Source: Planctomycetota bacterium (GTDB lineage: Bacteria > Planctomycetota > Planctomycetia > Planctomycetales > Planctomycetaceae). From it: a DNA stretch of 64,000 nucleotides. Under the pieces are notes generated by a model. The model was not told the origin of the DNA and made no database searches. It saw only the letters and a list, made by a program, of their open reading frames with translations. Below are positions 26,490 to 47,280 of this stretch, in pieces. The stretch lies in assembly GCA_016872645.1 (NCBI GenBank), contig VGZH01000013.1:1-64000 (forward strand). The letters run 5' to 3'. The translations under genes were made by a program, and so were the position numbers. Every line of letters begins with the position of its first letter. Positions within the stretch are counted from its first letter, which is position 1.

Positions 26490-26594
26490 CGCGTTCGTTC
26501 AATTAGCCCGACACGCAAGCGCGGGGTTTACTCAGTCATGGAATCAGCCACTCGCTAGCGCGTCGTGCTGGAATTAAGTCGAGCTCAGTTCCCC

Positions 26595-28562: not shown

Positions 28563-28626
28563 AACAGCCTCAGCACGAGTACTTCGTCGCCTTGTTCGCC
28601 AGAAGGTGGGACTGACGGGCGAACAC

Positions 28627-28646
28627 CCACGTTCTGGCAAACGTGG
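28627..28646. repeat. Small hairpin upstream of the vWA cluster
   Basis: CCACGTT (28627-28633) pairs perfectly with AACGTGG (28640-28646) around a 6-base loop. It lies in the 369-base gap between divergent ftsW-type and vWA genes. A REP-like dispersed element or a regulatory site; no gene is seen in the rest of the gap. Confidence 0.45.
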
Positions 28647-28900
28647 CTACCCGCTCAATCGGCCCGGCCGAACGAATGTCTCGACACCTTATCCCGTGCG
28701 CTGGACTATGAGGGCGAGAACTTCGTCCGAGTGCGACGCAGCCACAAAGTGAATCGAGCGTTACCGGCTGAGTTTGCCCGACCGGCACAGGACGAATGCA
28801 CGGAGTTGCCAGTTTGCTCGGCGAAATCGTGGCCGGTGGCGGGCGTTTGCGGCGGGTGTGCAACCTGATTACTGTTCCGCCTGCGTTGCTCATTGACGTC

Positions 28901-28928
28901 TCGGATTTCGTGTCTCGGATTTCGCATC
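28901..28928 (+). repeat. Heptanucleotide repeat, single arm, at the start of the vWA gene
   Basis: Four 7-base units: TCGGATT, TCGTGTC, TCGGATT, TCGCATC, ending four bases before the chosen start ATG 28932. The upstream in-frame extension to 28893 would translate it. Confidence 0.5.
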
Positions 28929-28931
28929 CTT

Positions 28932-31232: not shown

Positions 31233-31248
31233 CGGCGGAAATGACTCG

Positions 31249-33777
31249 ATGCTGAATATTGAATTCAATTTAGTGAACCTCGCAGCCGACACGCGGATGG
31301 CATGGGAGGTTGATTTGCCGAGCAGCCCGGTGGCTTGGCTGGGATGGCTGGCGTTGGCCGTCATTGGCGTCGCATGGATCGTCTCGCTGTACTTGCGAGA
31401 CACTCAGGAATTGCACCCGGCTTGGAAGGTGTGGCTGCTCTTGTTGCGGCTCGGAGCATGGGCCGGGTTGATTGCCGTTGCTGTCAATCCGCAGGAGCGA
31501 ACTCAGACAACCTCGTTTCGGGCGTCGCGGGTCGCAATCGCTGTGGACACGTCGCTGTCGATGCAGTTGCCGGAGAAGTCCCCTGAAGAATTGACGGGCT
31601 CTGCGGAGCCCGATGGAGCCAGGGGCGAGTCTCACGATCCTGCCCCGTCCGCAATGGCTCGCTCGCGTGCAGACGCGGTGCGCGAGTTGTTGGAACGCTC
31701 GCCATTGATCGCCGAATTGCAGAAGAATCACGACGTAAGCCTTTTCACGTTCGACTCGGCGCAGGCGGGGCCGCATTGGCAGTTTCGGACGAAAGATCTG
31801 CGTGTCGTCGGGCAGGCGGCGAGCCTGCCGGGAGATCAATCGAAGGACGAAAAAAAGAACGACACGGCAGTTGCGGATAAGCCCGCGGTGCTCCAGTGGG
31901 ATGAAGTCTTGAAGCCGCGCGGTGTCGAGACGCGGCTCGGCGAGTCGCTGCTGGAGCTCGTGCGGCAGATCAGCGGAAAGTCGTTGTCAGGGGTTGTCGT
32001 CATCTCGGACGGAGCGGCGAACTCCGGCATTGATCCCGCCTCGGCCAGTCATTTCGCGGCGCAATCGAACACTCGGTTGCTGACGGTCGGAGTCGGCGGA
32101 ACAAAGTCGCCGGTGAATCTGGCAATCGCCAGCGTGCAGGCTCCGACCGACGCACATCTGGGTGATCCGTTTGAAATCACAGCGTTCGTGCAGGCCGAAG
32201 GACTCGCCGGCAAGACCGCGATCGTCGAACTGTTGTCTCGCCCAGAAGGAGAGACGTCTGAGCCGAGCCTCCTCGAAGCGAAAGAAATCGCGTTGGCCGA
32301 CAACGGCGTGCCGTTGGAGGTTCGATTTCAGCAGAACCCAGCGACGGCGAATTCAGTCGAGTATCTGCTGCGTGCGAAGACCGCTGCCAAGATCAACGAA
32401 CTCAGCAACGCCGACAACGATCGTCGCAAAACGATTCGCGTCACCGATCGCAAGACGAAGGTCTTGCTCTTCGCCGGCGGCCCGATGCGCGATTACGTGT
32501 TCCTCAAGAACATGCTCTTCCGGCACTCGGCTATCGAGGTCGATGTGCTGCTGCAAACAGCTGACCTTGGCACGGCGGTCAGTCAGGAATCCAAGAAATT
32601 GCTGTTCGAGTTTCCGAAGACGCGGGAGGAGCTCTTCCCGTACGACGTCATCGTGGCCTTCGATCCAGACTGGCGCAAAGTCACCGCCGAACAACAAGCC
32701 GCACTGCGCGAGTGGGTCTTCTCGCAATCCGGCGGACTGATTCTCGTGGCGGGGGACGTCAACACGTCGTCGCTTGCAAGCGGCGGCGAAGAAGTGAAGC
32801 CGATTCAGGAGTTGTGCCCGGTGACACTCAGCTCGCTGGCGTCCGACTTGCTGGCCGACGCGAGCGGCCCGCAGGCATGGCCGATTGGCTTCTCGCGAGC
32901 GGGTCTGGAAACGGGCTTTCTGCAACTGACCGACGACACGATTAGCAGCGCGGCCGTTTGGAAAGAGTTCCCCGGAATCTACCGCTGCTATCCAACCGCT
33001 GGCTCGAAGGCCGGAGCAACCGTGTACGCGAACTTCACCGACCCTCGTTCGGAGACCAGCTACGGTGCGCCGGTCTGGCTCGCGTCGCAGTTCTACGGAT
33101 CGGGCCGGACGCTGTACGTCGGAGCCGGGGAACTCTGGCGACTACGCGCGATCGACGAAGACTACTTCGATCGTTTCTGGACCAAAGCGATTCGAGAACT
33201 CAGCACGACACGGCTGAGGCGTGGTACCATGCGAGGCATGTTGCTACTTGAACGGAATCAGTATCTGCTCGGCCAAACGGCGCATGTGCGAGCGTTGCTC
33301 AGCGACGCTCAATTTCAACCGCTCGTCGCCGAGGCGATCAACTGCGACATTTACGATCCGGCTGGCCGGCCGCAACTTCCGCCGCTCAAACTGATGCCTG
33401 ACCGCCAGCGTCCCGGCCAGTTCGTCAGCGACTTCCGCCTGAGCCTTCCAGGAACGTACCGTCTCGAACTGCTGGTCCCCGACTCGACTGACAAGCTGTC
33501 TGAGAAATTGGACGTTTCGCTCCCGAACTTGGAAACCGCCAACGCCCAACAGAAAGTCCAATTGCTTCGAGCGATGGCCGAAGAAACCGGCGGAAAGTAC
33601 CTGCCACTCGACGAGAACACGGCTGCCGCTCTGCCGAAGCTGCTGCCCAATCATGGCGAAGAGTTTCTGGTCGACGAACGGCTGCGAACCCTCTGGGACC
33701 GTGACTGGGTTCTGTATGTGCTGGTCGGATTGCTGTCTGCCGAGTGGCTCACGAGGAAACTGCTGAAACTGGCCTAG
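31249..33777 (+). CDS. Second vWA membrane protein with amidotransferase-like domain (BatB-like position)
   Basis: 842 residues. Two N-terminal membrane segments (WLGWLALAVIGVAWIVSLYL; VWLLLLRLGAWAGLIAVAV) precede a vWA-type domain with DTSLS (D100, S102, S104). Residues about 400-620 are amidotransferase-like (KVLLFAGGPMRDYVFLKN). The C-terminal third has a beta-sandwich look and ends in a membrane segment. A small hairpin at 31811-31829 (GGCAGGC/GCCTGCC) lies within the polar insert of the vWA domain and encodes part of a GQAASLPGD stretch. It starts 16 bases after the previous stop. Together the two vWA proteins may form a metal-dependent adhesion or complex scaffold (inference). Confidence 0.85.
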   Translation: MLNIEFNLVNLAADTRMAWEVDLPSSPVAWLGWLALAVIGVAWIVSLYLRDTQELHPAWKVWLLLLRLGAWAGLIAVAVNPQERTQTTSFRASRVAIAVDTSLSMQLPEKSPEELTGSAEPDGARGESHDPAPSAMARSRADAVRELLERSPLIAELQKNHDVSLFTFDSAQAGPHWQFRTKDLRVVGQAASLPGDQSKDEKKNDTAVADKPAVLQWDEVLKPRGVETRLGESLLELVRQISGKSLSGVVVISDGAANSGIDPASASHFAAQSNTRLLTVGVGGTKSPVNLAIASVQAPTDAHLGDPFEITAFVQAEGLAGKTAIVELLSRPEGETSEPSLLEAKEIALADNGVPLEVRFQQNPATANSVEYLLRAKTAAKINELSNADNDRRKTIRVTDRKTKVLLFAGGPMRDYVFLKNMLFRHSAIEVDVLLQTADLGTAVSQESKKLLFEFPKTREELFPYDVIVAFDPDWRKVTAEQQAALREWVFSQSGGLILVAGDVNTSSLASGGEEVKPIQELCPVTLSSLASDLLADASGPQAWPIGFSRAGLETGFLQLTDDTISSAAVWKEFPGIYRCYPTAGSKAGATVYANFTDPRSETSYGAPVWLASQFYGSGRTLYVGAGELWRLRAIDEDYFDRFWTKAIRELSTTRLRRGTMRGMLLLERNQYLLGQTAHVRALLSDAQFQPLVAEAINCDIYDPAGRPQLPPLKLMPDRQRPGQFVSDFRLSLPGTYRLELLVPDSTDKLSEKLDVSLPNLETANAQQKVQLLRAMAEETGGKYLPLDENTAAALPKLLPNHGEEFLVDERLRTLWDRDWVLYVLVGLLSAEWLTRKLLKLA
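31811..31829. repeat. Small perfect hairpin inside the second vWA gene
   Basis: GGCAGGC and GCCTGCC form a 7-bp stem with a 5-base loop inside the coding sequence, in a polar stretch of the vWA domain. The site resembles other inverted repeats of the window that fall in tolerant protein positions. Confidence 0.4.
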
Positions 33778-33786
33778 GACTCGAAC

Positions 33787-36231
33787 ATGTTCGATCACAT
33801 CCAACTCCCACCTGAAGTCGACGCGATTCTCACGGAATTGAAGTCGCGGATTCGGCGATACGTTTTGTGGCAGGGACTGGCGTTGGTGGTTGTGGCCGTC
33901 GGCTTGTTCTTCTGGTTCAGTTTGGGATTTGACTGGGCGGTCTTTTCAGTGCGGCGATTGGAGCCTCCGCGTTGGTTGCGAGTCGGCTTGGACTTGGCGG
34001 TGGTCGGCGGGGTGACGGCTGTCCTGTTTTCTTTCGTCTTGTTCCGAGTTTTCCGCAGTTTTCGGACCAAGTCGCTGGCACTGATCTTGGAAAAGCGATT
34101 TCCGGAATTAAACGATCGGCTGGTCACGGCGGTTGAGTCGTCGGGACAGGCGGAGTCTCACACAGCGCTGACGTCGGCGATGTTGGAACGCACGATGCTC
34201 GATGCGGTCAGCATGCTCAAGCAGGTGGATGTCGGCGTTGTCTTTGACCAACGACCGCTGCGGCGAGTGATGACGGTGGCGAGCGTGCTGCTGGTTTCGC
34301 TGATTGCGTTCGCCACGATGTGTCCGCAGGCATTCGCTCGCTGGCGAGCGGGTTATCTGGGCCTGGAAGAAACGTATTGGCCGCGCGATGTGGAACTCAT
34401 CGCGACGGTCTTGGCTGAACCGGGAGATCGCGTGAAGCTGTTCGTCGATGGCGAATACAAACATCCTCGCGGCGGCGATCTCGTGTTGCTGTTCGATGTC
34501 CCCGCCGGCAAAAAGGTGCCGGAGCGTGTTGAACTGCAATACAAGCTCGGCGGCGGTCGTGGTTATGGCCGAGCGACCTGTTTCGCTGCCGGAGAACGCC
34601 GCTTCAAGCACGCGATTGATGACCTTTTGGACGACGCCGACTTCTGGGTCACGGCCGGTGACTTCACCAATCGCCAAGCGTATCGCGTGCGAGTCGTCGA
34701 TCCGCCGCGAATCGACGTGTTGACCGCCGAGAGCCTGTTTCCCGAACACACGAAGCGACAGAAGCTCGACGACGAATCGGGCACGCCGGTGCGTGAAACC
34801 GTCTCGGTCCAAGGGACGCAGATGTCGCTGCCGATCGAGACCGATTTCCTGCTGCGAGCGAAAACTAACAAGCCGCTAGTCCAAGCTCGACTGCAATTCG
34901 GCCCGCACGAACTGACGCTGTCACCGACGCAAGCCTCACTGAAAACTCCTTCCGCGGACGGCCAAGCGATGCAGGTCGAGCCGATCTCGGCAGACCGCGC
35001 CGCAAAGTACTTCGACGCCGCTGGACGCGAGTTCGTCGTCCCGTTCGTGCTCTCCGAATTGGCGACACCAGCTGCTCGTGAACGGTTTGAGAAATTGGAC
35101 ACGCCATTCGGCAAGCCGATCGTGATGCCGCCGGACGTCGCGCTGAAGATCTTCCTCGAAGACACCGACGAAATCATCGGAGCCGAACCGGCCAAGATCA
35201 CGATTCATGGCATTGCCGACAACCCGCCAACCATCGCCGCCGAACTCAAGGGGATCGGCACGTCGGTGACTCGCAAGGCGGAGATTCCTGTCGCGGGAAT
35301 CATCGCCGACGACTACGGACTCAAGGACGTGCGATTTGAATTCCTGATCGACGAAAAAGAACCGTGGGAAGTCCGCTCGTTGTCGAAGTCCCCCAGCGGC
35401 GAGCCGCGCGAATTCAAACTGCAAGCAGACGCTGATGACCCGACCGAACGACTGGAAATCCTGAAGATGGATCTCGCGGTCGGCCAAAAGCTAACACTGA
35501 CCGTTGTTGCTGAGGACGCAGACAACCTCAACGGCCCGCACGTTTCGCGCAGCCAGAAGTTCACGTTCAAGATCGTCAGCAACGAAGAACTGCTGTCGTT
35601 GCTCTATCAACGGGAACTCAATCTGCGCCGTCGGTTCGAGCAGATCATTTCCGAGGTCAAACAGACGCGAGCCGATCTGATCCTGCATCGCTCGAAAGCC
35701 GACGGGGCCGCGAAGCTGTCCGCCGAGGAAAAGGCGAACGCCACCGAGGTATCGACGGCAGTGGTCGCCAGCGTCGTTCGTTCACTGCATGCGATTCGCA
35801 AGAACGCCACCGAGACCATTTCCGTCGAGGAATCCTTTCAAGATATCCGCGAAGAATTGATCAATAATGCGGTTCACACCCCACAAATGTTGGAACGAAT
35901 CGACGAGAAAATCGTAAAACCTCTCCACGCGCTGAACACGGGAGATTATCCTTCTGTGGACGAATCGCTGGGGGCTTTGAAGCTCTTGCTGGACGACGGC
36001 CGCGATCCCTTGCCGGGCCTGGACGAATCGATCGCCCAGATCGGCGTGATGCTCGACCAGATGGACACGATTCTCAAGGAAATGCAGCGGCTGGAGACAT
36101 TCCAGGAAGCCATCGAACTCCTCAAGTCGATCATTGATCAACAGCAGCAACTCGAAGAACGCACCAAGTCCGAACGGAAGAAACGCCGCATTCAAGAACT
36201 GAAAGGGCTTTCCGATGAGACCGAAAAGTGA
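33787..36231 (+). CDS. DUF4175-like membrane protein
   Basis: 814 residues. Two membrane segments near residues 27-50 and 70-92, a third near 160-180, then a large polar extracytoplasmic region, and from about residue 600 long heptad-like helices rich in Glu/Lys/Arg that look coiled-coil. The architecture resembles DUF4175-type proteins found beside vWA/Bat genes; I am moderately sure of that. It starts 9 bases after the previous stop and its stop lies inside the next gene (overlap 17 bases), so translation is coupled. It likely forms part of a multi-protein envelope complex with the two vWA proteins. Confidence 0.78.
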   Translation: MFDHIQLPPEVDAILTELKSRIRRYVLWQGLALVVVAVGLFFWFSLGFDWAVFSVRRLEPPRWLRVGLDLAVVGGVTAVLFSFVLFRVFRSFRTKSLALILEKRFPELNDRLVTAVESSGQAESHTALTSAMLERTMLDAVSMLKQVDVGVVFDQRPLRRVMTVASVLLVSLIAFATMCPQAFARWRAGYLGLEETYWPRDVELIATVLAEPGDRVKLFVDGEYKHPRGGDLVLLFDVPAGKKVPERVELQYKLGGGRGYGRATCFAAGERRFKHAIDDLLDDADFWVTAGDFTNRQAYRVRVVDPPRIDVLTAESLFPEHTKRQKLDDESGTPVRETVSVQGTQMSLPIETDFLLRAKTNKPLVQARLQFGPHELTLSPTQASLKTPSADGQAMQVEPISADRAAKYFDAAGREFVVPFVLSELATPAARERFEKLDTPFGKPIVMPPDVALKIFLEDTDEIIGAEPAKITIHGIADNPPTIAAELKGIGTSVTRKAEIPVAGIIADDYGLKDVRFEFLIDEKEPWEVRSLSKSPSGEPREFKLQADADDPTERLEILKMDLAVGQKLTLTVVAEDADNLNGPHVSRSQKFTFKIVSNEELLSLLYQRELNLRRRFEQIISEVKQTRADLILHRSKADGAAKLSAEEKANATEVSTAVVASVVRSLHAIRKNATETISVEESFQDIREELINNAVHTPQMLERIDEKIVKPLHALNTGDYPSVDESLGALKLLLDDGRDPLPGLDESIAQIGVMLDQMDTILKEMQRLETFQEAIELLKSIIDQQQQLEERTKSERKKRRIQELKGLSDETEK

Positions 36232-38101
36232 CAACTGCAGCGTGACAAGCGCAAAGTGCAAAGTGCATGGCGTCCAGTCTCGTCATTTGCACTTTGCACT
36301 TTGCACTGCGTTCGTCACGATCGTCATTGGGCTGTCTCTGGGTGGTATTTCCGTCAGTCAAGAGACGACTCCACCGCCGAACAAGCCCAACCTGGCCAAC
36401 GATCAGGATTCAATCAAGGCACGCTACAAACGGTTCAATCTCACGCTGCAACAGATGGCGGAGATTCTTCGCAAACAAGATCCTGAACGGGCGGACTTGC
36501 TGTTCCGAGCACTCGGCAAATCGCAGGAGACGCGAATTGAAGACCAGATGAACCTGATCTTCTCGCTGCTCAACAAAGAACAACCGCAACTCGGTGAGGC
36601 AATCGACCGCCAAGAAGAATTGGTCGGACAGCTCAAAAACCTGTTGGACCTGTTGCAGTCCGAAGATCGCCGTTCAGAAATCGAAAAGGAAAAACAGCGG
36701 CTGCAGGACTTGCTCAAAGACATCAACAAGATGATCGGCAAGGAGAAGGACGTCCGCGCCGGCACCGAACGGGGCGATGACACCAAGAAACTCGCCGGCA
36801 AACAGGAAGACATCGCAAAGGATGCCGACAAGCTTGGCCAGAAGATCGACAAACAGGACGCCGAGAAGAACGGAGAACCTCCGCCAAACTCAAAGTCGCA
36901 GAAGTCTGATTCAAAGCCGGGCGACCCCAAGAGTACCGATCAAAAGCCGAGTGACAAAGACGGCAAGCCGATGGACGACAAGTCCGACAAGCCGGCCGAA
37001 GACCAGAAACCGGGTGACACCAAGAAGCCGGACGACAAAGACAAGAACAAAGACAAGAACGACAATCCGTCTGACATGAACAAGTCGGATAAGCCGATGG
37101 ATGGCTCCAAGCCGCAGGACAAGGAGGGCAAACCATCCGACCAGAAACCGATGCCCAACAAAAGCCAGCAAGGCAAGCCAATGGATGGCCAACCGCAAGA
37201 CAGCCAGCCGATGCCAATGCAGGACGGGCAGCAACAAGACGGCCAACAGGACAACCAACAGCAAAACGATCCCAAAAAACAAAAAACACCTGGCCGCAAG
37301 CAACTTGAAGAGTCTCGCGATGCGATGCAACGGGCAATTGAAGAACTCAAAAAGCAGAAGCCGGCTGACGCTTCGAAGGAACAAGACGATGCAATCCGTA
37401 AGCTGATGGAGGCTAAAGAGAAAATCGAGGAGATCCTCCGGCAGCTTCGCGAAGAGGAACAAAAGCTGATGCTCGCCGCACTCGAGGCTCGCTTCAAAAA
37501 GATGCTCGCGGCACAGCTCATCATCTATCACGACACCGTGCGACTCTCGAAGGCTGGCGATTCCGAGAAGGCAACGGCCCAAGCTCGTGCCGTGAAACTG
37601 TCGCAGGGCGAGCAGGAAATCTTGATTGATGCCGATAAGGCGTTGATCTTGCTCAAAGAAGAGGGATCGTCGATCGCCTTTCCTGAATCGGTCGCAGGCA
37701 TTCGGCAAGACGTTCAAAATCTCGTCGGCTGGTTGCAGGACGCGAAGGTCGGCGAACTGACCCAGGCGGTTGAGAAAGATGTCATCGAGGCTCTCGAAGA
37801 ACTGATTGAAGCGTTGCAAAAGGAGATGGAGAAGTCGGACGAGGACAAGAAGAAACAACAACAGCAGCAGCAACAACAGAATCAGGAGCAATCTCAGCCG
37901 CTCGTCGATCAACTCGCCGAGTTGAAGATGCTGCGATCGTTGCAACTGCGAGTGAACCGCCGCACGAAACAACTTGGCCGCACGTTTGAAGGGGAGCAGG
38001 CCACTCAGGACGAAGCTGTGCAGCAATTGCAGCAACTCTCTGGCCGACAAGCCCGCATCCAGCAAGCGACCTCGGACTTGGTGAAGGGGAAAAACAAATG
38101 A
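36215..38101 (+). CDS. Exported coiled-coil protein with long disordered Lys/Asp/Gln-rich linker
   Basis: 628 residues. ATG 36215 overlaps the previous gene by 17 bases. The N-terminal 50 residues hold a hydrophobic core (HLHFALCTAFVTIVIGLSL) encoded by one arm of the heptad-repeat hairpin at 36251-36304; this acts as signal peptide or anchor. Residues 75-190 are coiled-coil-like helices. About 205-350 is a low-complexity linker of repeated DKP, KPD and QQ words. A second helical region follows, and near 550 a run of nine Gln precedes the C-terminal helices. No fold-specific motif was recognised. It shares the operon with the vWA proteins and may act as a flexible spacer or scaffold across the periplasm (inference). 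Confidence 0.82.
   Translation: MRPKSDNCSVTSAKCKVHGVQSRHLHFALCTAFVTIVIGLSLGGISVSQETTPPPNKPNLANDQDSIKARYKRFNLTLQQMAEILRKQDPERADLLFRALGKSQETRIEDQMNLIFSLLNKEQPQLGEAIDRQEELVGQLKNLLDLLQSEDRRSEIEKEKQRLQDLLKDINKMIGKEKDVRAGTERGDDTKKLAGKQEDIAKDADKLGQKIDKQDAEKNGEPPPNSKSQKSDSKPGDPKSTDQKPSDKDGKPMDDKSDKPAEDQKPGDTKKPDDKDKNKDKNDNPSDMNKSDKPMDGSKPQDKEGKPSDQKPMPNKSQQGKPMDGQPQDSQPMPMQDGQQQDGQQDNQQQNDPKKQKTPGRKQLEESRDAMQRAIEELKKQKPADASKEQDDAIRKLMEAKEKIEEILRQLREEEQKLMLAALEARFKKMLAAQLIIYHDTVRLSKAGDSEKATAQARAVKLSQGEQEILIDADKALILLKEEGSSIAFPESVAGIRQDVQNLVGWLQDAKVGELTQAVEKDVIEALEELIEALQKEMEKSDEDKKKQQQQQQQQNQEQSQPLVDQLAELKMLRSLQLRVNRRTKQLGRTFEGEQATQDEAVQQLQQLSGRQARIQQATSDLVKGKNK
36251..36304. repeat. Perfect 17-bp inverted heptanucleotide repeat at a gene start
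   Basis: Left arm GCAAAGTGCAAAGTGCA (36251-36267) and right arm TGCACTTTGCACTTTGC (36288-36304) are exact reverse complements around a 20-base loop. Each arm is two and a half copies of a 7-base unit. The hairpin lies 36 bases into the gene, and the right arm encodes the start of the hydrophobic signal region. It should form a strong structure in the mRNA near the start codon. Confidence 0.8.
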
Positions 38102-38119
38102 ACCGCCAAGCAGCCCATC

Positions 38120-38147
38120 TGGTCCGTCAATGGTCCGCAGTCCATCG
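38120..38147 (+). repeat. Heptanucleotide repeat, single arm
   Basis: Four 7-base units beginning TGGTCCG; GTC recurs every seven bases. It lies just after the stop of the coiled-coil gene, in the stretch before the next signal peptide. Confidence 0.4.
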
Positions 38148-38277
38148 CTGCCAGCGACCCCGAAAACTCGCTACCGCTAGAATCGACCACCCCGCCAAGT
38201 TTGGTTCGAATCGCCGGACCGATTTCGGGATAACGATTGTGTCTGAAGAGGGTGTATGCGCGAGAGTTCTATTGAGC

Positions 38278-39327
38278 ATGTCGCTCTTCCTTCAGCGTGC
38301 AAATTGGTTCGCTCTGTTTTTTGTTTCGCTGTTCTTTTCTCTGAGTCCAGCCTTCGCGGCCAACGAAGTCTTCTCGCCTCCAGCGCCCGCCGACGTTCGC
38401 ACGAAGGCTCTGCAATGGGTGGCCGAACGAGGCGTCACCGATAAGTCCGTTCTCGAAAACATTGGCCGCGAATGGGTGCTCGAAGGAACGTCGCTCACCG
38501 CCGAAGAAACGTTGCAACGAGTCATCCGCACTCTGACACTGGCCGATCCGACCGCCAAGCAAGTCGTCGAAGCCTGTCGTGAAGCGGTTCCCGTGGCGAC
38601 ATGGCCGCGCGATGTGATCCCGCTGACCGATGCGATGCCCGATCTTGCTCGGCAGCATTTACGACTGTTTGTCGGGCGGTTTCTTGCTCAACGGCAGTTG
38701 TACGAGGAGGCATTGGAAGTCCTGGCCGCCGTCGATCCGAAGCAGGTGGTCGATCCCGCGAGCTACTTCTTTCAACGTGCGATTTGTGAGCACCAGCTTT
38801 TGAAGAAAAGCGACACACTGAAGTCACTCGGCAACTTGCTTGATAACACGCAGAACGTGCCCGAACGCTACAAAGCCGTGGCGTTGCTGATGCGGCACGA
38901 CATCGAGCAACTCAAGGAGGCGTCGCTGGGGGAAGTCGCGAAGAAGATGTCGGATGTCGAACGTCGGCTGATCCTCGGCCGAGGTGGCGAGAAGACGCAG
39001 AAGGTCGAAGAAGAGATCGTCGAGGCTCTCGACGAGATCATCAAAAAGGTCGAACAGCAGCAACAGAACTCCGGCGGCGGAGGTGGCCAAGGGGGGAATC
39101 AAAACCAATCGGGTGGTGCCGCCGGTGACAGCAGCGTGAAGGGGGCCACCGCTCCCGGCGAAGTCGACAAGAAAGACATCGGCAACAAGGCCGGCTGGGG
39201 TTCGCTGGCCCCAAAGAAAGCCGCAGAGGCGAAGAACGTCATCAACCGCAACTTCCCCTCGCACTATCGCGAGGCGATCGAGCAGTACTTCAAGAAGCTG
39301 GCGAACCGACCGGCCGGAAAAGAGTGA
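38278..39327 (+). CDS. Exported coiled-coil/TPR-like protein with Gly/Gln linker
   Basis: 349 residues from ATG 38278, which begins a clear signal peptide (core LFFVSLFFSLSP, end AFAANE). The frame is open back to an ATGA overlap at 38098, but that extension is polar and holds a heptad repeat, so I prefer the later start. Helical repeats of TPR style occupy residues 30-230 (QLYEEALEVLAAVDPKQ), followed by a Glu/Lys helix, a Gly/Gln/Asn/Ser-rich linker near 265-290, and a C-terminal block ending NFPSHYREAIEQYFKKLA, a wording typical of proteins beside the vWA/Bat cluster. Function unknown; it is probably a complex partner. Confidence 0.8.
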   Translation: MSLFLQRANWFALFFVSLFFSLSPAFAANEVFSPPAPADVRTKALQWVAERGVTDKSVLENIGREWVLEGTSLTAEETLQRVIRTLTLADPTAKQVVEACREAVPVATWPRDVIPLTDAMPDLARQHLRLFVGRFLAQRQLYEEALEVLAAVDPKQVVDPASYFFQRAICEHQLLKKSDTLKSLGNLLDNTQNVPERYKAVALLMRHDIEQLKEASLGEVAKKMSDVERRLILGRGGEKTQKVEEEIVEALDEIIKKVEQQQQNSGGGGGQGGNQNQSGGAAGDSSVKGATAPGEVDKKDIGNKAGWGSLAPKKAAEAKNVINRNFPSHYREAIEQYFKKLANRPAGKE

Positions 39328-39333
39328 CGACCG

Positions 39334-40506
39334 ATGAATTTGTTGTCCGCTGTTTTGCTGGCCGTGTTGGCGGCTCCTCAAGTGGAAGTAGTTTCGTTCC
39401 AAGGTGAGCCTCGTGTCGGCGAGTGGCGCGGATTGGCAGACGGCCGAATCACGATCGCTCAAGCCGGCAAAGAGGAATCGCTGCCGCTCAACGAGGTGCT
39501 GGAGGTCCGATTCCGAGGCGAAGCGGCAAAGCTCGATAAGCCGTCGGCGATCGTGTCGCTGTGGGACGGTTCGAAGCTCGGCACCGCTCGATCGCAAATT
39601 GTTGAGAAGCGATTGAAGCTCACGTCAGCAGTACTCGGCGAGTTTTCGTTGCCGCAAACCGAGGTCGCTAGCGTGCGATTCTCGGATCGTTTCGATGAGG
39701 ACGAACAGTGGTTGAGGCTGGTTGAGCGAGACAACAAAACTGATCTGCTGGTGATTCGTAAAGAGCAGACGCTCGACTATCTCGATGGAGTCGTGGTCGA
39801 GGTCACTGACAAGTCGGTGAAGTTTCTGCTCGACGGCGAAGAGGTCTCGACGAAACGCGAGAAAGTCTTCGGCTTGATCTTTGCCCGTCGTCCGAGCACC
39901 CCCAAACCTCCGGCTGTCCGAGCGGAACTTGGCAACGGCGACGTGCTCATGGCCTCCACGATCGCGGCGACACCGACCGGAATCTCCATGACGACGGCGA
40001 CGAAAACCGAAGTTACGGTGCCGCTTGAAAAACTCAAGTTGCTGGATTTCAGCCAAGGGAAGCTGCGATACCTGTCGCAAGACACGCCGCGTGACGTGAA
40101 GTACACCCGCGGGATTCAAGACGGACCGGCGTTCGTCCAAGACCGGGCGTTCTATGCCCCGGAGTTGAAGCCGATGGGGATGCGAGTCTTTGCCCGTGGT
40201 CTGTGCATCCGTCCAAAGACGTCGTTGCGGTATCGGCTCGGCGGAGACTACCGCCGGTTGCAAGCGATCGTCGGGATCGATGAAAGCGTGAAAGACGGCA
40301 ACGGCGATTGCGACCTGGAAATCTTTGGAGACGGCAAGTCGTTGATGAAGCTGCGAGTGACGTCGCGCGACGCCGCTCGGCCCATTGATTTGGATGTGAC
40401 CGACATGGTCATGCTGGAAATCAACGTCGGCTTCGGCGGCGACGCGGCGACGAATGTGGACCTCGGAGATAATCTCGATTTGGCGGACGCCAAGTTGATC
40501 AAGTGA
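39334..40506 (+). CDS. Exported protein with C-terminal NPCBM-like domain
   Basis: 390 residues. A short hydrophobic N-terminus (LLSAVLLAVLAAPQ) acts as signal peptide. The first third is beta-rich (VSFQGEPRVGEWRGLADGRITI, similar in style to the N-terminal module of the 23981 TPR protein). From about residue 265 to the end there is an NPCBM-like module (novel putative carbohydrate-binding module), with LKPMGMRVFARGLCIRPKTSLRYRLGGDYRRLQAIVGIDES. NPCBM domains are proposed carbohydrate or glycan binders; in planctomycetes they occur on many secreted proteins. It starts 6 bases after the previous stop. Confidence 0.78.
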   Translation: MNLLSAVLLAVLAAPQVEVVSFQGEPRVGEWRGLADGRITIAQAGKEESLPLNEVLEVRFRGEAAKLDKPSAIVSLWDGSKLGTARSQIVEKRLKLTSAVLGEFSLPQTEVASVRFSDRFDEDEQWLRLVERDNKTDLLVIRKEQTLDYLDGVVVEVTDKSVKFLLDGEEVSTKREKVFGLIFARRPSTPKPPAVRAELGNGDVLMASTIAATPTGISMTTATKTEVTVPLEKLKLLDFSQGKLRYLSQDTPRDVKYTRGIQDGPAFVQDRAFYAPELKPMGMRVFARGLCIRPKTSLRYRLGGDYRRLQAIVGIDESVKDGNGDCDLEIFGDGKSLMKLRVTSRDAARPIDLDVTDMVMLEINVGFGGDAATNVDLGDNLDLADAKLIK

Positions 40507-40510
40507 GGAA

Positions 40511-42292
40511 GTGATGATCGGTCAACGCAAAGTGGCGAAGGGAAAAAGGGGCGGAGTGTTGTGCTTCGGTTGTCTGTGTTTGTTGGCGACCTCATTGACG
40601 GCTGCTGAGCCGCAAGTTCGCGAGGCGGAACTGAAACGAGTTGAGGTCATTGAGAAGGTGGCCCCGACCGTCGTTGCGGTCTTCGCGAAGGGTGGAGCCG
40701 GCGGCGGTTCGGGAGTGCTTATCAGCAAGGAGGGGTTCGCACTGACCAACTTTCACGTCGTCACCGGACTGGGGCCGTTCATGAAGTGCGGCCTGAATGA
40801 CGGAGTCTTGTACGACGCGGTGCTGGTCGGGATCGATCCGACTGGCGATGTCGCGCTTGTCAAATTGCTAGGCCGGGACGACTTCCCGGTGGCGACGCTC
40901 GGCGACAGCGACAAACTGGAGATCGGCGATTGGACGTACGTCATGGGGAATCCGTTTCTGTTGGCGACCGACTTTCAGCCGACCGTGACCTACGGCATCG
41001 TCAGCGGCACGCATCGCTATCAGCCTCCGGCCGGGACTTGGCTGGAATACACCGACTGCATACAGGTCGACACCTCAATCAATCCCGGTAACTCTGGCGG
41101 GCCGTTGTTTAGTTCGGCGGGGGAACTTGTCGGCATCAATGGCCGCGGTTCGTTCGAGAAGCGTGGCCGAGTCAACTCTGGCGCGGGGTATGCGATTTCG
41201 ATCAATCAGATCAAGTTTTTTCACGACCAACTGAAAGCCGGGCGAGTTGTCGATCATGCGACGCTCGGTGCGACGGTGACGACGGAGGCCGATGGGGCCG
41301 TCGTGGTCAACGGCATCTTGGAGACCTCGGACGTCTATCGTCGCGGGCTGCGATCCGGCGATGAGTTGGTCAGTTTCGCGGGGCGCCCCGTTCGCAGCGT
41401 CAACCAGTTCAAAAACATTCTCGGCATCTACCCAAAGGACTGGATGCTGCCGATCGTCTTCCGCCACGAGGGAGAACGCCGCGAGATTCATGCGCGGCTG
41501 CGCGGCCTGCACGCGAAGACCGAGTTGATGCCCGGCCCTCGACCGCAACCGAAACCACGTCAGCCGATGCCAAAGAAAGACAAGGACGGCAAACCGGAGA
41601 AAACTCCCGACCTGCCTCAGGCACCGCCATCTGATCCACACGCGGAAGCGAAGAAGACGGCGATCCCCGAACAATGGAAAAATTGGTTCGTCGCAAAACC
41701 CGGCTTTGCCAACTACCGCTTCAACCAATTGGAGCAGGACCGCGTGTTCGTTTCGTTGAAGGGCTTAGGGGATTTCGCATCAGCCACAGGCTCGTGGCGA
41801 TTGAGCGGTCAGTCGATGGCCGGCGACAAGTTTGAGCTGACGCTCGCGGCCAAAGGGGTCGGCTTGGAAATTCGGGACGGCGCCTTCTTCCAGCAACTCG
41901 AAGACACAGACCCGGCGGACGAACCACAGGGAACCGGCGGATTCTTGATCGCGGCTCATCAACTCCGGCTCCTGCTGCAAGCAGGAGCGAAGGGCTTCAC
42001 CGAATGCCACTACTTTGGCAGCGAACCGCTCGATGGGCGTGGCGAGTTGGCAGATGTGATCGTCACGACTCTGGGAGCAATCGAGACACGCTGGTTCTTC
42101 AGTCGTGCTTCTGGCCTGTTGCTCGGACTCGACAGTCGGCTGCTTGAAGATGCAGAGCCTTGCCAAATCCGGTTCGACGGTTGGAACGACTTCAGTGGCC
42201 GACGCCTTCCTGCGACATGGCGGGTGACGAGTGCCGACAAAGAATTCGCGACACTGAAAGTTGAGAAGGCGGAAGTCGCGGGCAAGAAGTGA
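40511..42292 (+). CDS. HtrA/DegP-type serine protease with PDZ domain (intact triad)
   Basis: 593 residues. A signal peptide (core VLCFGCLCLLATSL) is followed by a trypsin-like domain with the full triad: H82 in TNFHVV, D113 in DPTGDVALVKL and S195 in NPGNSGGPL. A PDZ domain spans about residues 245-330. The C-terminal third, after a Pro/Lys linker, is a beta-rich domain I do not recognise. It is the only one of three adjacent HtrA-like proteins that keeps a full triad. Start at GTG 40511 or ATG 40514, with GAGGA just upstream. HtrA proteins degrade or refold misfolded periplasmic proteins; here it closes a vWA/coiled-coil operon. Confidence 0.9.
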   Translation: MMIGQRKVAKGKRGGVLCFGCLCLLATSLTAAEPQVREAELKRVEVIEKVAPTVVAVFAKGGAGGGSGVLISKEGFALTNFHVVTGLGPFMKCGLNDGVLYDAVLVGIDPTGDVALVKLLGRDDFPVATLGDSDKLEIGDWTYVMGNPFLLATDFQPTVTYGIVSGTHRYQPPAGTWLEYTDCIQVDTSINPGNSGGPLFSSAGELVGINGRGSFEKRGRVNSGAGYAISINQIKFFHDQLKAGRVVDHATLGATVTTEADGAVVVNGILETSDVYRRGLRSGDELVSFAGRPVRSVNQFKNILGIYPKDWMLPIVFRHEGERREIHARLRGLHAKTELMPGPRPQPKPRQPMPKKDKDGKPEKTPDLPQAPPSDPHAEAKKTAIPEQWKNWFVAKPGFANYRFNQLEQDRVFVSLKGLGDFASATGSWRLSGQSMAGDKFELTLAAKGVGLEIRDGAFFQQLEDTDPADEPQGTGGFLIAAHQLRLLLQAGAKGFTECHYFGSEPLDGRGELADVIVTTLGAIETRWFFSRASGLLLGLDSRLLEDAEPCQIRFDGWNDFSGRRLPATWRVTSADKEFATLKVEKAEVAGKK

Positions 42293-42299
42293 GGAGGAT

Positions 42300-42462
42300 G
42301 CAAAGTGCAGAATGCAGAGTGCAAAGTGCAAAGTGTTGAACAGTCGGAGGGGCAGATTCCCCTAGCCGTACGTTTTCAGGCGCCTACCGCATCTCGATCG
42401 GCCCGTTCTCGCTCCGTCATGCAACTTGCAATCTGCACTCTGCACTTCGCACTCTGCACTGT
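42300..42462. repeat. Heptanucleotide repeat pair at the start of the first pseudoprotease gene
   Basis: Left arm: five 7-base units from 42300 to 42334 (GCAAAGT, GCAGAAT, GCAGAGT, GCAAAGT, GCAAAGT). Right arm: six units from 42421 to 42462 (GCAACTT, GCAATCT, GCACTCT and relatives), complementary in reverse. The left arm contains the GTG start and the right arm encodes the signal-peptide core. Confidence 0.75.
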
Positions 42463-43453
42463 GTTGTTTCCGTTCTCGGCCCACGCTCAATCGACTCGCG
42501 ACACCATCTCTGCCCTTCAGCCCAAGGTCGTCAAAATTTTTGGTGCCGGCGGGATCAAGAGCCTGGCAGCTCACGGGACGGGGTTCTTCGTCAGCAAAGA
42601 AGGTCACATCGCGACGATCTGGAGTCATGTGCTCGATGCCGATCTCGTCACGGTCGTGTTGTCGGACGGCCGCCGCTTTACGGCACGCGTGTTGGGGGCG
42701 GAACCGCAACTTGCTTTGGCCGTGCTGAAGCTGAACGGCGCGGAGGGGGTTGAGTTTCCGTACTTCAATCCCGACGAGGCAATTTCGGCGGGGACCGGGA
42801 CGCGAGTGCTCGGATTTAGCAACATGTTTAACGTCGCGGCGGGGGACGAACCGGTCTCGGTGGTGCATGGAGTGATCGCGGCGAAGACGGTGATCGAGGC
42901 GCGGCGTGGCGTGTTCGACAGTCCGTATTCAGGCCCGGTGTTTGTGGTTGACGGGGTGACGAACAACTCCGGCGCGGCAGGCGGTGTGCTGACGACTCGC
43001 GATGGGTTGCTGCTGGGGATGATCGGCTTGGAACTGCGGAACGCGAAGTCGAACACCTGGATGAACTATGCGATTCCCGTCAACGAACTGGCCAGTCCGA
43101 TTCAGCAAATCATCTCCGGCAAGTTCGAACGGAAGAAAGACCCGCACGAAGACGAGCCGTCCTTAAAGCCGCGGCGCTACAAGCCGCTCGATTTTGGTTT
43201 CCTGCTGGTACCTGATGTCGTCGAGCGGACTCCGGCGTTCATCGACTCGATTCAAGGCGACTCTGCGGCTGCGAAGGTTGGCCTGAGATCTGACGACCTC
43301 GTCCTGTTCGTCAACGACGAGCTGATCCAGTCCTGCCGAGCTTTGCATGAGGCGATTGGCCGCTTGGAATCTGGCGATCAACTCCGCCTGGTGGTCCGTC
43401 GAGGCAACGAACTGGTCAACGTCGAGATGCCGGTCCCGAAAAAGAAAGAGTGA
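42305..43453 (+). CDS. HtrA-like protein with degenerate catalytic triad (pseudoprotease)
   Basis: 382 residues from GTG 42305 (GAGGAGG at 42291-42297 gives a 7-base spacing); ATG 42419 is a shorter alternative that keeps the signal peptide. The signal core (LAICTLHFALCTVLF) is encoded by a heptad arm and followed by SAHAQ. The trypsin-like domain aligns with its upstream neighbour, but only the His is kept (H108 in SHVL). The Asp position is Leu (about 137) and the nucleophile position is Ala225 (GAAGGV instead of NSGGP). A PDZ-like C-terminal domain follows. It should not cut peptides; a regulatory, binding or decoy role beside the active protease is likely. It overlaps the next gene at GTGA. 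Confidence 0.85.
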   Translation: MQNAECKVQSVEQSEGQIPLAVRFQAPTASRSARSRSVMQLAICTLHFALCTVLFPFSAHAQSTRDTISALQPKVVKIFGAGGIKSLAAHGTGFFVSKEGHIATIWSHVLDADLVTVVLSDGRRFTARVLGAEPQLALAVLKLNGAEGVEFPYFNPDEAISAGTGTRVLGFSNMFNVAAGDEPVSVVHGVIAAKTVIEARRGVFDSPYSGPVFVVDGVTNNSGAAGGVLTTRDGLLLGMIGLELRNAKSNTWMNYAIPVNELASPIQQIISGKFERKKDPHEDEPSLKPRRYKPLDFGFLLVPDVVERTPAFIDSIQGDSAAAKVGLRSDDLVLFVNDELIQSCRALHEAIGRLESGDQLRLVVRRGNELVNVEMPVPKKKE

Positions 43454-45597
43454 CCACGATGCAGCAAGTTGCAAAACCGAATCGTCTGGCCGATAGCCGT
43501 GAACCGAAAGCCGATGTTTGTTGTCTTTTTTCCGAGTGGAAAAGGATGACGGCAATCGGCTGTCGGCCATCGGCCATCGGCCGGGCAATCGCGAACTTGT
43601 TGTTGATCCTTTTGTGCCAGCCGGCGTGGTCCTGGCAATCGCCAACACGCGAATTGGAAGAGGCCGAGGAGCAAGCCTTCAAGCGAGCGGTGTCGCAGGT
43701 GGCTCCATCGTTAGTGCGGATCGAAACGGTCGGCGGGCTGGATCAAGTCCAGAACTTCTTGCTTGGTAACGGGCCGACGACCGGGGTAATTGTGTCGGCG
43801 GATGGTTATGTGATTTCGAGTTCGTTCAATTTTCTGTCGAAGCCGGCGTCGATTCTGGTGACGACGACTGATGGAAAACGACTGGCGGCGAAAGCGATCG
43901 CGAACGACACCGTGCGGATGCTGACGCTACTGAAAGTCGATGCGGAGGGATTGGTTCCCGCTCGGCCGACGGCAAAGCCTTCGATTCGGGTCGGACAATG
44001 GGCGATCGCGGTCGGACGGGCGCTCGATGCGAATGCGCCGAACGTGTCGGTCGGGATCGTCAGCGCGGTGAATCGAGTCTGGGGGAAGGCGATCCAGACC
44101 GACGCGAAAGTCTCTCCGGTCAATTACGGCGGAGCACTGGTGGACGTGGATGGCTCGGTGTTGGGAGTGCTCGTGCCGCTATCGCCGCAGGACAATTCGC
44201 CAGTGGCGGGGGTTGAGTGGTACGACTCAGGAATTGGCTTTGCGATTCCTCTGGCCGATGTGCTCGCGACGCTCGACCGGCTCAAGCAAGGGAAAGACCT
44301 GCGGCTGGGCTTGGCAGGTTTCAATTTCGCGTCGACCGACCTGTACGGCGGCGACACGAAGATCGACCGTGTTCGTTACGACTCACCGATGTATCGCGCG
44401 GGTTTCAAAGACGGCGACTTGATCCTGGAACTCGACGGCCACAAGGTGACGCGGCCAGCGCAGGTGCGGCACGTACTCGGCAGCAAGATCGAAGGTGACA
44501 AACTGGCGATCTCAATCAAACGGGGCGAGGAAACGAAGCGTGCCGATCTGACGCTCGTTGCCGAACTGCCGCCGTTCGAGGCGGGGTTCTTGGGAGTCTT
44601 GCCGACGCGAGAGAAGGTCGGCAGTGGATCCACCGAAGGGGGAGCAGCCGGTGACGGGGTCGGCGTGCGTTGGGTGTATCCCGATAGTCCGGCGGCCAAG
44701 ATTGGATTGAAGCCGCGAGATCGGATCATCAAGTTTCGCGATCAGAGCATCACCTCCGCCGCGCAATTGATCGACCAGGTCAGTCGCGTCCGTCCAGCCG
44801 AGAAGGCCGCCGTTATCATTCGTCGCGATGGCAAAGAGCAATCGTTGGAGGCGACGCTGGTTGGCTATCCAGCCGATTTGCCAAAAGACTTGCCGACTTC
44901 CGCCATCGAAGCGGTTGCCGATGCCGAATCCAAAACACCGGATGACAACAAGGGAGGGGAAGCAGAGAAGCTGCGCACCGGACGCTTCGCAGAAGAAGTC
45001 GCCGAAAGCAAGAACGCTTGGTGGGCGTTCGTCCCGGAAAGCTACAACCCAGCTTACGCGTATTCACTGCTCGCGTGGCTGCATCCGCCGGGTGACACGC
45101 TCGAAGCGACGGTCTACGACTCATGGAAACTTGAAGCCGAACGGCGTGGAATCATTCTGCTGGGGCTGAAGGCGGCTAACATCAACTCCGGATGGCAAGC
45201 CAATGAAGCCGAGTTCGTTCATGAAACAGTCGTCTCATTTCAGAAGAAGTATTCGGTCGACACTGGCCGCATCGTGCTGCATGGCTACGACAAGAGCGGT
45301 CCGTTCGCGACGCACTTGGCGTTCAAGCACCGCGACTTGTTCCGCGGTCTGCTGCTCGCGGCGTCGGCGGTTGCTGAGCGGCCACCCGAGAATCTGCCGG
45401 AGTATCGGCTGCAATTCCAATTGATCTGCGGTTCAAAAGACCCGGCTCATGCGACTCTCGAAAAGATGGCCAAGAGCCTGCAAGGTATTAAGTACCCGGC
45501 GAACTTCACCAGCCTGTCTGACTTGGAGCATCGGTATCCGAATGCTGAGGGAATCGATGCAATGGCCCGGTGGATTGATTCGCTCGATCGGTTGTAG
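43450..45597 (+). CDS. HtrA-like pseudoprotease with two PDZ domains fused to an alpha/beta-hydrolase-like domain
   Basis: 715 residues from GTG 43450 (overlap with the previous stop) or ATG 43459. The signal core (AIANLLLILLCQ) follows a heptad-repeat-encoded stretch. The trypsin-like domain has lost all three catalytic residues: the His position is Phe126, Asp is Met157, and Ser is Tyr226 (NYGGAL). Two PDZ-like domains follow (about 283-360 and 395-475). After a polar linker, residues about 520-715 resemble an alpha/beta hydrolase (IVLHGYDKSGPFATHLAFKHRDLF), but the nucleophile elbow reads GYDKS, with Asp where Ser is expected. So both lobes look catalytically dead or altered. A sensor or adaptor for the active HtrA is a reasonable idea. 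Confidence 0.85.
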   Translation: MTTMQQVAKPNRLADSREPKADVCCLFSEWKRMTAIGCRPSAIGRAIANLLLILLCQPAWSWQSPTRELEEAEEQAFKRAVSQVAPSLVRIETVGGLDQVQNFLLGNGPTTGVIVSADGYVISSSFNFLSKPASILVTTTDGKRLAAKAIANDTVRMLTLLKVDAEGLVPARPTAKPSIRVGQWAIAVGRALDANAPNVSVGIVSAVNRVWGKAIQTDAKVSPVNYGGALVDVDGSVLGVLVPLSPQDNSPVAGVEWYDSGIGFAIPLADVLATLDRLKQGKDLRLGLAGFNFASTDLYGGDTKIDRVRYDSPMYRAGFKDGDLILELDGHKVTRPAQVRHVLGSKIEGDKLAISIKRGEETKRADLTLVAELPPFEAGFLGVLPTREKVGSGSTEGGAAGDGVGVRWVYPDSPAAKIGLKPRDRIIKFRDQSITSAAQLIDQVSRVRPAEKAAVIIRRDGKEQSLEATLVGYPADLPKDLPTSAIEAVADAESKTPDDNKGGEAEKLRTGRFAEEVAESKNAWWAFVPESYNPAYAYSLLAWLHPPGDTLEATVYDSWKLEAERRGIILLGLKAANINSGWQANEAEFVHETVVSFQKKYSVDTGRIVLHGYDKSGPFATHLAFKHRDLFRGLLLAASAVAERPPENLPEYRLQFQLICGSKDPAHATLEKMAKSLQGIKYPANFTSLSDLEHRYPNAEGIDAMARWIDSLDRL
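43489..43585. repeat. Heptanucleotide repeat pair at the start of the second pseudoprotease gene
   Basis: Left arm 43489-43516 (GCCGATA, GCCGTGA, ACCGAAA, GCCGATG); right arm 43551-43585 (GGCAATC, GGCTGTC, GGCCATC twice, GGCCGGG), roughly complementary in reverse. The word differs from the GCAAAGT class but the 7-base period is the same. Confidence 0.7.
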
Positions 45598-45702: not shown

Positions 45703-47103
45703 TCAGGCGGTGACCTCGAAGCCTTTGCGTTGTTCGCGAGCTTGCCACTTGTTCGCGTCGGCATCGCCGGTGATCTCCTGTTTTTCGGGATCCCAGTTCA
45801 GCTTGCGGCCGAGGCGGATCGCGATGTTCGAGAGATGGCAGGTCGTCATTGCTCGGTGATGGGTGTAGACGTCGCTGATCGGCTGAGTCCGATCGACGCA
45901 GCACTCGAAGAAGTTCCGCATGTGGTCGCCCGGTTGCTTGCCCTTGTAGAGCTTGCTGATGGCGTCGGCCGGCAGCGGATTGGATTCGAGGTCTTCGACC
46001 GGCTTGCCCTTCAGCGAGCCACGACTGACGAAGATGCGACCTTCGGTCCCTTCGATCAGCACGCCGTTTTCCTCGTCGTTGCGGATCAGCATATCGATGC
46101 CATTGGCGTACTTCACATTGATCTTGAACTCGTGAGCCGCGTTGTAGCGGTTGCTCACGGTCGGGTGGCCGTTCTCGAACGGGACCGGATGCTTGGCGGT
46201 TCCTTCGACGCTGATCGGGCCGCTGTTCTCCATGCCAATCGCCCAGGTGGCGATGTCGACGTGGTGGGCTCCCCAGTCGGTCAACTTGCCGCCGGAGTAT
46301 TCGTACCACCATCGGAACTCGTAGTGCGTGCGGCTTTCCGGGTAGCTCTTGTTGTTGCCGAAGCCTCCCTGCAGGTAGTCAGTCATCGGCGCTTGTCCCA
46401 GCCACATGTCCCAGTTGAGATGCTTGGGGACTTCCGCCGTCGGGATGTCGGAACTGGTGGGAGCTCCGCCGATGCGGCACTCGACCTTCTGAATTTTTCC
46501 GAGCCGTCCCGATCGAGCCAGCGCGACGGCCACCAGAAACTGCTGCTGAACTTTCCCGCCGTTGGCGGACATCTCGCTCCGCTGTTGCGTGCCGACTTGG
46601 AAGACCCGCTTGGTGGCGTCGAGCACCTTGATGATCTTCTTGCCTTCGTCAATCGTCAGCGTCAGTGGCTTCTCGCAGTACACATCCTTGCCGTGCTTCA
46701 TGGCGTCGATCGATATTTTTGAATGCCAATGATCCGGCGTGACGACGGTGACGATTTGTGTCTCTGGGTGCTTGTCGAGCAGGTCGAGATAATTTTCGTA
46801 GACCTTCACCTCCTTGGCCGAGCCTTTCTTGTTCTGAGCATTTTCGACTCGCTTCTTCCCTTTCTGAGCGTGTTCAGAATCGACATCGCAGACGGCAACG
46901 CAATCGCCAAACTTCAGCGCGTTTGGTCCGACAGCGTTCCAACGGTCACCAGTGCCAATGCAGGCGATGAGCGGCCGCTCGTTGGGCGACTGAAACGCCT
47001 TGGCCGCAGCAGGGTCACGGAAGAACCAATACGGCATCGAACTGGCGGCGGCCGCCGCCAACGTTGTCTGCATAAAGTCACGCCGAGTTTGCCTGTTGCT
47101 CAT
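45703..47103 (-). CDS. Tat-exported Gfo/Idh/MocA-family oxidoreductase
   Basis: 466 residues from ATG 47103, with AGAGGA upstream. The N-terminus carries a twin-arginine signal (TRRDFMQTTLAAAAASS), so the protein is probably exported folded with its NAD(P) cofactor. The Rossmann domain begins ACIGTGDRW. The family signature CEKPLTL contains the conserved EKP lysine, and the C-terminal domain has GGKLTDWGAHHVDIATWA. Planctomycetes carry many such secreted oxidoreductases, often linked to sugar or polyol oxidation; the substrate is unknown. It sits beside other carbohydrate-type functions. Confidence 0.93.
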   Translation of the reverse strand: MSNRQTRRDFMQTTLAAAAASSMPYWFFRDPAAAKAFQSPNERPLIACIGTGDRWNAVGPNALKFGDCVAVCDVDSEHAQKGKKRVENAQNKKGSAKEVKVYENYLDLLDKHPETQIVTVVTPDHWHSKISIDAMKHGKDVYCEKPLTLTIDEGKKIIKVLDATKRVFQVGTQQRSEMSANGGKVQQQFLVAVALARSGRLGKIQKVECRIGGAPTSSDIPTAEVPKHLNWDMWLGQAPMTDYLQGGFGNNKSYPESRTHYEFRWWYEYSGGKLTDWGAHHVDIATWAIGMENSGPISVEGTAKHPVPFENGHPTVSNRYNAAHEFKINVKYANGIDMLIRNDEENGVLIEGTEGRIFVSRGSLKGKPVEDLESNPLPADAISKLYKGKQPGDHMRNFFECCVDRTQPISDVYTHHRAMTTCHLSNIAIRLGRKLNWDPEKQEITGDADANKWQAREQRKGFEVTA

Positions 47104-47147
47104 GACATTTCCTCTAAAATGCTGGATCTCAGCCGAGTAATTCACCT

Positions 47148-47175
47148 TCAGACGCGAGCGGCTCCTCGCGCCTGA
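47148..47175. repeat. REP-like hairpin in a divergent promoter region
   Basis: TCAGACGCGAG (47148-47158) pairs with CTCGCGCCTGA (47165-47175) except one position, with a 6-base loop. It lies in the 177-base gap between the divergent Gfo/Idh/MocA and YdjM-like genes. Confidence 0.5.
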
Positions 47176-47280
47176 CGAAACTTCCCCGCGGAGTCTAAAC
47201 TTGTCTCGCGAGGAACGAAACTCTGGCTGCGAAGGACAGCCCAATCTCCATTCGTCCTTCCGAAGAGGAAGTCACTTCCA

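Follow-up and report, generated by a model that had tools for sequence, protein, structure and literature searches.

One active HtrA protease and two catalytically dead paralogues kept together in Planctomycetota point to a protease with built-in non-catalytic subunits

Why should a bacterium encode, directly behind an HtrA protease, two relatives of it that have lost the residues needed for cutting? The question is raised by a Planctomycetota bacterium (Planctomycetaceae; assembly GCA_016872645.1), of which we analyzed positions 1 to 64,000 of contig VGZH01000013.1 on the forward strand; this whole stretch of 64,000 nucleotides is called the window. One of its operons ends with three plus-strand genes, P1 (40511-42292), P2 (42305-43453) and P3 (43450-45597), which a first-pass annotation had read as an active HtrA protease next to two dead relatives. 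HtrA proteases are textbook homotrimers in which every subunit is active. An active HtrA accompanied by two dead paralogues suggests a protease under the control of non-catalytic subunits of its own, as is indicated by P2 and P3 having dead sites and yet being under strong selection, and the best-supported reading of these two proteins is that they are non-catalytic subunits or regulators of P1.

For the comparison of catalytic residues, loci were gathered from the same class (130), from elsewhere in the phylum (20) and from 80 named contigs (partly the same contigs), and the removal of identical and gappy rows left 143 distinct P1-P2-P3 sets. All three proteins exceed the gathering score of Pfam Trypsin_2 (27.6 bits), with 103.9 bits for P1, 55.9 for P2 and 71.5 for P3. 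P1 consists of a signal peptide, a protease domain, a degenerate PDZ domain and a C-terminal domain. Its triad lies in the motifs TNFHVV (H82), DPTGDVAL (D113) and NPGNSGGPL (S195); the protease domain aligns with many solved HtrA proteases, and this alignment and the orthologues uphold the three residues named in the first-pass annotation. His, Asp and Ser are intact in all 140 complete rows. With only 16.3 bits, the PDZ domain of the window P1 stays below the cut-off of 27, but PDZ_2 is matched by 23 of 24 P1 orthologues, with E values down to 3e-10, and the superposition of the P1 model on solved HtrAs extends over their PDZ domain. In the AlphaFold2 model (mean predicted local distance difference test score, pLDDT, 83), the protease domain and first PDZ superpose on HtrA structures (best Z 31.7, root-mean-square deviation (rmsd) 3.8, 279 residues), and the C-terminal domain is a helix plus a beta-sheet. 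For this last domain a PDB profile search gave no match, and structure searches with P1 were filled by HtrA matches; a few orthologues have sub-threshold Pfam matches to DUF4292, LolB and LolA_like, so that the domain is perhaps LolA/LolB-like, which is a lead only.

Judged by its sequence, P2 is an HtrA-fold protein without the catalytic serine. It aligns with DegP (E 3e-17) and contains a PDZ domain (34.5 bits; cut-off 27). The codon in the place of the serine (42977-42979) encodes Ala225, and Ser occurs at this column in 0 of the 143 sets, where Ala (99) and Gly (26) are followed by Q, Y, P, F, H, T, D and E. The His column (H70, Y27, Q16, P12 and others including I and V) and the Asp column (D74, E34, A12 and others) vary as well. 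The first-pass annotation was right about the retained His108 and about Ala225, but its replacement of Asp by Leu was off by one residue: P1 D113-V-A-L-V-K-L aligns over P2 A137-L-A-V-L-K-L, so the residue is Ala137, and most P2 orthologues outside the genus have Asp or Glu there. The equivalent of chymotrypsin Gly193 (G223 in the window) is present in P2 of all 143 sets, and P2 may therefore still bind substrate-like peptides in its cleft.

P3 is an HtrA pseudoprotease with two PDZ domains and a C-terminal alpha/beta-hydrolase-like domain; it aligns with DegS (E 9e-26), and its PDZ score is 81.2 bits against the same cut-off of 27. All three triad residues have been lost as Phe126, Met157 and Tyr226, just as had been proposed, and the orthologue alignment agrees with each. 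The Tyr226 codon (44125-44127) replaces the catalytic Ser, with Tyr in 141 of 142 orthologues, and the His column is Phe, Tyr or Trp in 138 of 143 sets. Besides, the oxyanion-hole glycine is lost (V224), a point absent from the first-pass annotation, and the Gly193-equivalent position is never Gly. A non-glycine residue at this position was argued to be incompatible with an oxyanion hole in MamO, a dead HtrA (PMC4794232). P3 is probably unable to bind substrate-like peptides in its cleft in the normal way. Residues 64-375 of its AlphaFold2 model (mean pLDDT 83) superpose on HtrA structures (best Z 27.0, rmsd 3.9, 273 residues), and as the models of both P1 and P3 do so, the substitutions are located in genuine HtrA folds.

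The hydrolase-like domain of P3 (44980-45588, residues about 511-713) is real, as is its GYDKS nucleophile elbow, both of which had been noticed earlier; it is recognized by weak Pfam matches in orthologues (best E 1e-5) and by the order of helices and strands in the model. What does not hold beyond the genus is the elbow Asp (D614). The nucleophile position is mostly Gly elsewhere (G39, D14, A13, E12 and others), with variation at the acid and His positions as well (His in 25 of 113 at the His column), so that this module looks non-catalytic and is, on its residues, probably a non-catalytic module too. Outside the class many P3 proteins are shorter and match neither the second PDZ nor the hydrolase-like part.

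Is this pattern a local accident? Orthologues of P2 and P3 with intact triads were looked for, since the first-pass annotation had said that they would speak against it, and none was found. The search models for these orthologues were derived from the dead P2 and P3 themselves; a Ser-bearing orthologue would still be detected by them, yet they are not blind to the trait. The dead pattern is not local, and is fixed across much of the phylum, which excludes chance. In all 170 loci holding the three genes, they lie on a single strand in the order P1-P2-P3. A search with P2 in 298 genomes of the class gave strong orthologues (E < about 1e-57) in about 245 of 253 genomes outside the family f2 and in 0 of 45 genomes of that family; P3 was likewise not found in those f2-family genomes searched with P3. 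In nearly all genomes searched with both, P2 and P3 are jointly present or jointly absent. In the window, the three genes overlap or nearly touch, as described before, with a gap of 12 bases between P1 and P2 and an overlap of 4 bases between P2 and P3; these values refer to the longest open reading frames, and the true starts of P2 and P3 are probably further in.

The three proteins are also maintained and old. Between the window and five congeners, the ratio of non-synonymous to synonymous substitution rates (dN/dS) is 0.05-0.08 for P1, 0.035-0.08 for P2 and 0.066-0.09 for P3. These values, similar to those of the neighbouring NPCBM gene (0.06-0.09), show that all three are under strong purifying selection. 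A tree of 104 protease domains places P1, P2 and P3 in one clade each, with support of 99, 99 and 97 in the Shimodaira-Hasegawa-like approximate likelihood ratio test (SH-aLRT). These clades are separate from 20 other planctomycete HtrA paralogues and reach other classes of the phylum, so most of the sampled classes diverged after the three lines had become distinct and two of them had lost their active sites; the branching order among the three is not resolved in this tree. The GNSGG motif is present in 19 of the 20 other planctomycete HtrA genes sampled, and the remaining one gave no match.

Two further HtrA triplets were seen in the phylum. A more distant one from another part of the phylum (L270:3790-7360) has one member with NYGNSGG, in which Ser is kept, and one with NPGSFGG, in which it is lost; this triplet might represent an earlier stage or be unrelated. 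The other (L280:3117-6205) has the same gene order with NPGNSGG, NQGDFGG and SPANTGG, the third member having Thr and not Tyr.

What would the dead proteins do? P1 and P2 are fused in one reading frame at three loci, L173 (933 residues), L272 (1045 residues) and L275 (1290 residues), which belong to different families, one within this class and two outside. On the level of sequence, these fusions are the best evidence here that P1 and P2 work together. The first-pass annotation had spoken of dedicated inactive partners, for which the fixed dead sites, the purifying selection, the invariant linkage and order and the separate clade of each protein give strong support; its suggestion of a complex is backed only indirectly, by the P1-P2 fusions in three lineages and by published precedents, and its idea of regulation or sensing is a plausible proposal.

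In the arrangement that we propose, three ancient HtrA paralogues would act jointly in the periplasm as one regulated protease, with P1 as the sole catalytic subunit and with P2 and P3, which keep the HtrA fold and PDZ domains and presumably cannot cut, in a structural and regulatory role. The likeliest form would be a mixed HtrA trimer, with P2 and P3 standing where DegS or HTRA1 have identical subunits. HtrA proteases assemble as trimers, and loop LD of a subunit is set by loop L3 of the adjoining one. This L3-LD link between subunits has been described (PMC11252331), and through such loop contacts between neighbouring subunits P2 and P3 might switch P1 on. The signal may be ligands bound by the PDZ domains of P2 and P3 and by the extra C-terminal domain of P3, while the membrane proteins BatA and VWA2 of the same operon, with the MoxR ATPase and DUF58 protein encoded upstream in relatives, might anchor or remodel the assembly. 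What the data show are the dead sites and their fixation, the selection, the linkage, the P1-P2 fusions and the operon; we infer the physical complex from fusions and linkage, and its stoichiometry, the direction of regulation, the ligands and the substrates are likewise proposals. We lean, with moderate confidence, towards dead P2 and P3 subunits that control P1 within one complex. The strict form of this reading is a natural, obligate hetero-oligomer whose particles each contain one catalytic subunit and two that are permanently dead and evolved separately, and it has in our estimate somewhat less than an even chance; the dead subunits would then provide the allosteric input to the only active site, with a coupling to an envelope machine of MoxR and vWA proteins. 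At the trimer-core and salt-bridge positions of HTRA1 and DegS, an aromatic residue is kept in P1 (W141) and P3 (W184) and not in P2, and Arg43 of P1 is near-invariant; this is suggestive of non-identical interfaces, but the N-terminal alignment is too uncertain for it to count as evidence. The retention of two dead HtrA paralogues beside an active one across a phylum allows one to ask, as in a natural experiment, for which parts of the HtrA switch catalysis is dispensable.

Several observations weigh against a single complex. Some genomes, among them G017, G042 and G044, have P3 away from P1-P2, and it need not be an obligate third subunit. In a mean-field coupling analysis of the protease domains of the three proteins (143 rows, an effective number of about 105, for 494 columns), no signal between proteins could be interpreted: the top inter-protein pairs rest on scattered rare residues, and with so few sequences we conclude nothing from them. 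In the magnetosome pair MamE/MamO, an active and a dead HtrA, physical interaction was undetectable (PMC4794232). In Clostridioides difficile, the two pseudoproteases pair mutually and not with the active protease, CspC co-purifying with CspA and not with CspB (PMC12880746), so a P2-P3 module apart from P1 is possible. Such a module would be a homo- or heteromeric complex of P2 and P3 that senses a signal or binds substrate and relays it to P1, itself a separate homotrimer, in the manner of CspC:CspA and CspB in C. difficile spores. This is unlikely in our judgment, but it is the strongest competitor: the gene logic is alike, with one active protease, two dead paralogues and an active-dead fusion, and the unlinked P3 genes fit it. 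However, assembly follows other rules in the Csp proteins, which are subtilases, than in HtrA proteins, which are built as trimers, and the P1-P2 fusions tie P2 to P1, at least in expression. As CspBA is a fusion too, the fusions cannot decide between one complex and a separate sensor. Weighing the HTRA1 mixed trimers and the need for MamO in MamE proteolysis together with the undetected MamE/MamO contact and the dead pair of C. difficile, we rank one complex controlling P1 first and the separate P2-P3 sensor second.

It is rather improbable that P2 and P3 are stand-alone chaperones, or scaffold or ligand-binding proteins, tied to P1 only by a shared operon. DegP is known for chaperone activity, and the retained PDZ domains and the extra hydrolase-like module on P3 would suit such roles, but the joint presence and absence, the invariant gene order and the three P1-P2 fusions exceed what an operon needs. 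Catalysis by other residues, through a migrated nucleophile or the C-terminal hydrolase of P3, seems very improbable. P2 does keep the Gly193 equivalent and, in many orthologues, His and an acid, and P3 of this genus has Asp at its hydrolase elbow; against this stand the H/Y/Q/P/I/V column at His108 of P2, the loss of both triad and oxyanion Gly in P3, and the variable nucleophile, acid and His positions of its hydrolase-like domain. To the idea that P2 and P3 are decaying duplicates, or pseudogenes in progress, we give hardly any weight: it accounts for the lost catalytic residues, but the dN/dS of 0.035-0.09, on which pseudogene decay was rejected, the open frames of the extracted orthologues and the replacements fixed across the phylum all contradict it.

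The three genes close a run of nine co-directional genes (28893-45597), spaced by 4 to 16 bases or overlapping shortly. The operon begins here with a BatA-type protein (28893-31232) that has a two-transmembrane anchor, a von Willebrand factor type A (vWA) domain and CARDB; it scores 44.8 bits for Pfam BatA (cut-off 25.9) and 56.1 bits for NCBIfam TIGR02226 (cut-off 23.05), its VWA matches falling slightly below the Pfam cut-offs. Next come VWA2 (31249-33777), a large vWA-like membrane protein and conserved neighbour with nothing above Pfam cut-offs; D3 (33787-36231), a membrane-anchored coiled-coil protein of no Pfam family; CC4 (36215-38101), a coiled-coil or low-complexity protein; D5 (38098-39327), a conserved operon protein; and an exported protein with a C-terminal NPCBM domain (39334-40506; Pfam 69.2 bits, cut-off 23.9). 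All lie on the plus strand. D3, CC4, D5 and the NPCBM gene are syntenic among relatives, D5 outside the class too, where the operon end D5, NPCBM, P1, P2, P3 is retained. Genes for a MoxR AAA+ ATPase and a DUF58 protein lie directly upstream of BatA in the four relatives checked (L301, L302, L303 and L309), which suggests a Bat-type operon extended by an HtrA triplet; that spot is occupied in the window by a minus-strand FtsW/RodA-type gene (27414-28640). The nearest named relatives of the window genome are metagenome-assembled planctomycetes, with Schlesneria, Gimesia, Planctomicrobium and Thalassoglobus more distant.

Inverted repeats resembling repetitive extragenic palindromes, GCAAAGTGCAAAGTGCA, lie at 36251-36304 and 42300-42457, the starts of CC4 and P2; this repeat has 8 matches in the window against 0.03 expected, and other contigs carry 2 further exact copies. 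The repeats at these gene starts seem to have become part of the signal-peptide coding regions of CC4 and P2 (LHFALCT). Shortly upstream of the operon and on its strand, genes for TPR proteins are followed by MotA/ExbB and two ExbD genes (20263-27089), a Tol/Ton-type motor cluster. Downstream, a Gfo/Idh/MocA oxidoreductase gene (45703-47244) runs on the minus strand; with about 100 bases between its end and that of P3, the two transcription units converge.

We know of no HtrA described with a hetero-oligomeric design of one active and two dead subunits, and we found no published description of this operon in open-licence papers, an absence that is no proof of novelty. Nor do we know of an HtrA triplet in Bat (aerotolerance) loci, which have the arrangement MoxR-DUF58-BatA and with which the operon shares BatA in the window and, in the four relatives checked, MoxR and DUF58 directly upstream. 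To the MoxR-vWA (Bat) operons the triplet gives a concrete and assayable periplasmic output. A bat deletion in Leptospira biflexa caused no phenotype in growth or under oxidative stress (PMC3557215).

Among known proteases, DegS, DegP and DegQ, on which the models of P1 and P3 superpose, are homotrimers or larger homomers with all subunits active. P1, P2 and P3 score 197, 88.7 and 169.9 bits for the Do subfamily of NCBIfam (TIGR02037), below its cut-off of 416.2 bits. A catalytically dead HtrA subunit in an active assembly is known from mixed trimers of HTRA1, in which a dead S328A subunit assembles with a defective one and proteolysis is restored (PMC11252331); those are engineered alleles of one gene and not separate genes. 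MamE/MamO of Magnetospirillum is alike in that an active HtrA is encoded with a dead one, and MamO is required for MamE proteolysis without catalysis of its own; like P3, MamO has lost Gly193, with a bulky residue in loop L1 where P3 has Tyr (PMC4794232). It differs in having one dead partner, not two, and in the TauE transporter domain and metal site (di-histidine H148/H263) of MamO, and the scores of P1 against MamE (105 bits) and of P2 and P3 against MamO (39.3 and 27.7 bits) lie far below the NCBIfam equivalog cut-off of 800 bits. The CspB-CspA-CspC set of C. difficile likewise combines one active protease with two dead, signal-transducing paralogues and fuses the active protein to a dead one (PMC12880746). 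It is a clostridial set of subtilisin fold connected with the spore cortex, whereas the sequences of P1, P2 and P3, and the models of P1 and P3, match the trypsin/HtrA fold, and the planctomycete set is of chymotrypsin-type HtrA proteins with PDZ domains, encoded in an envelope operon.

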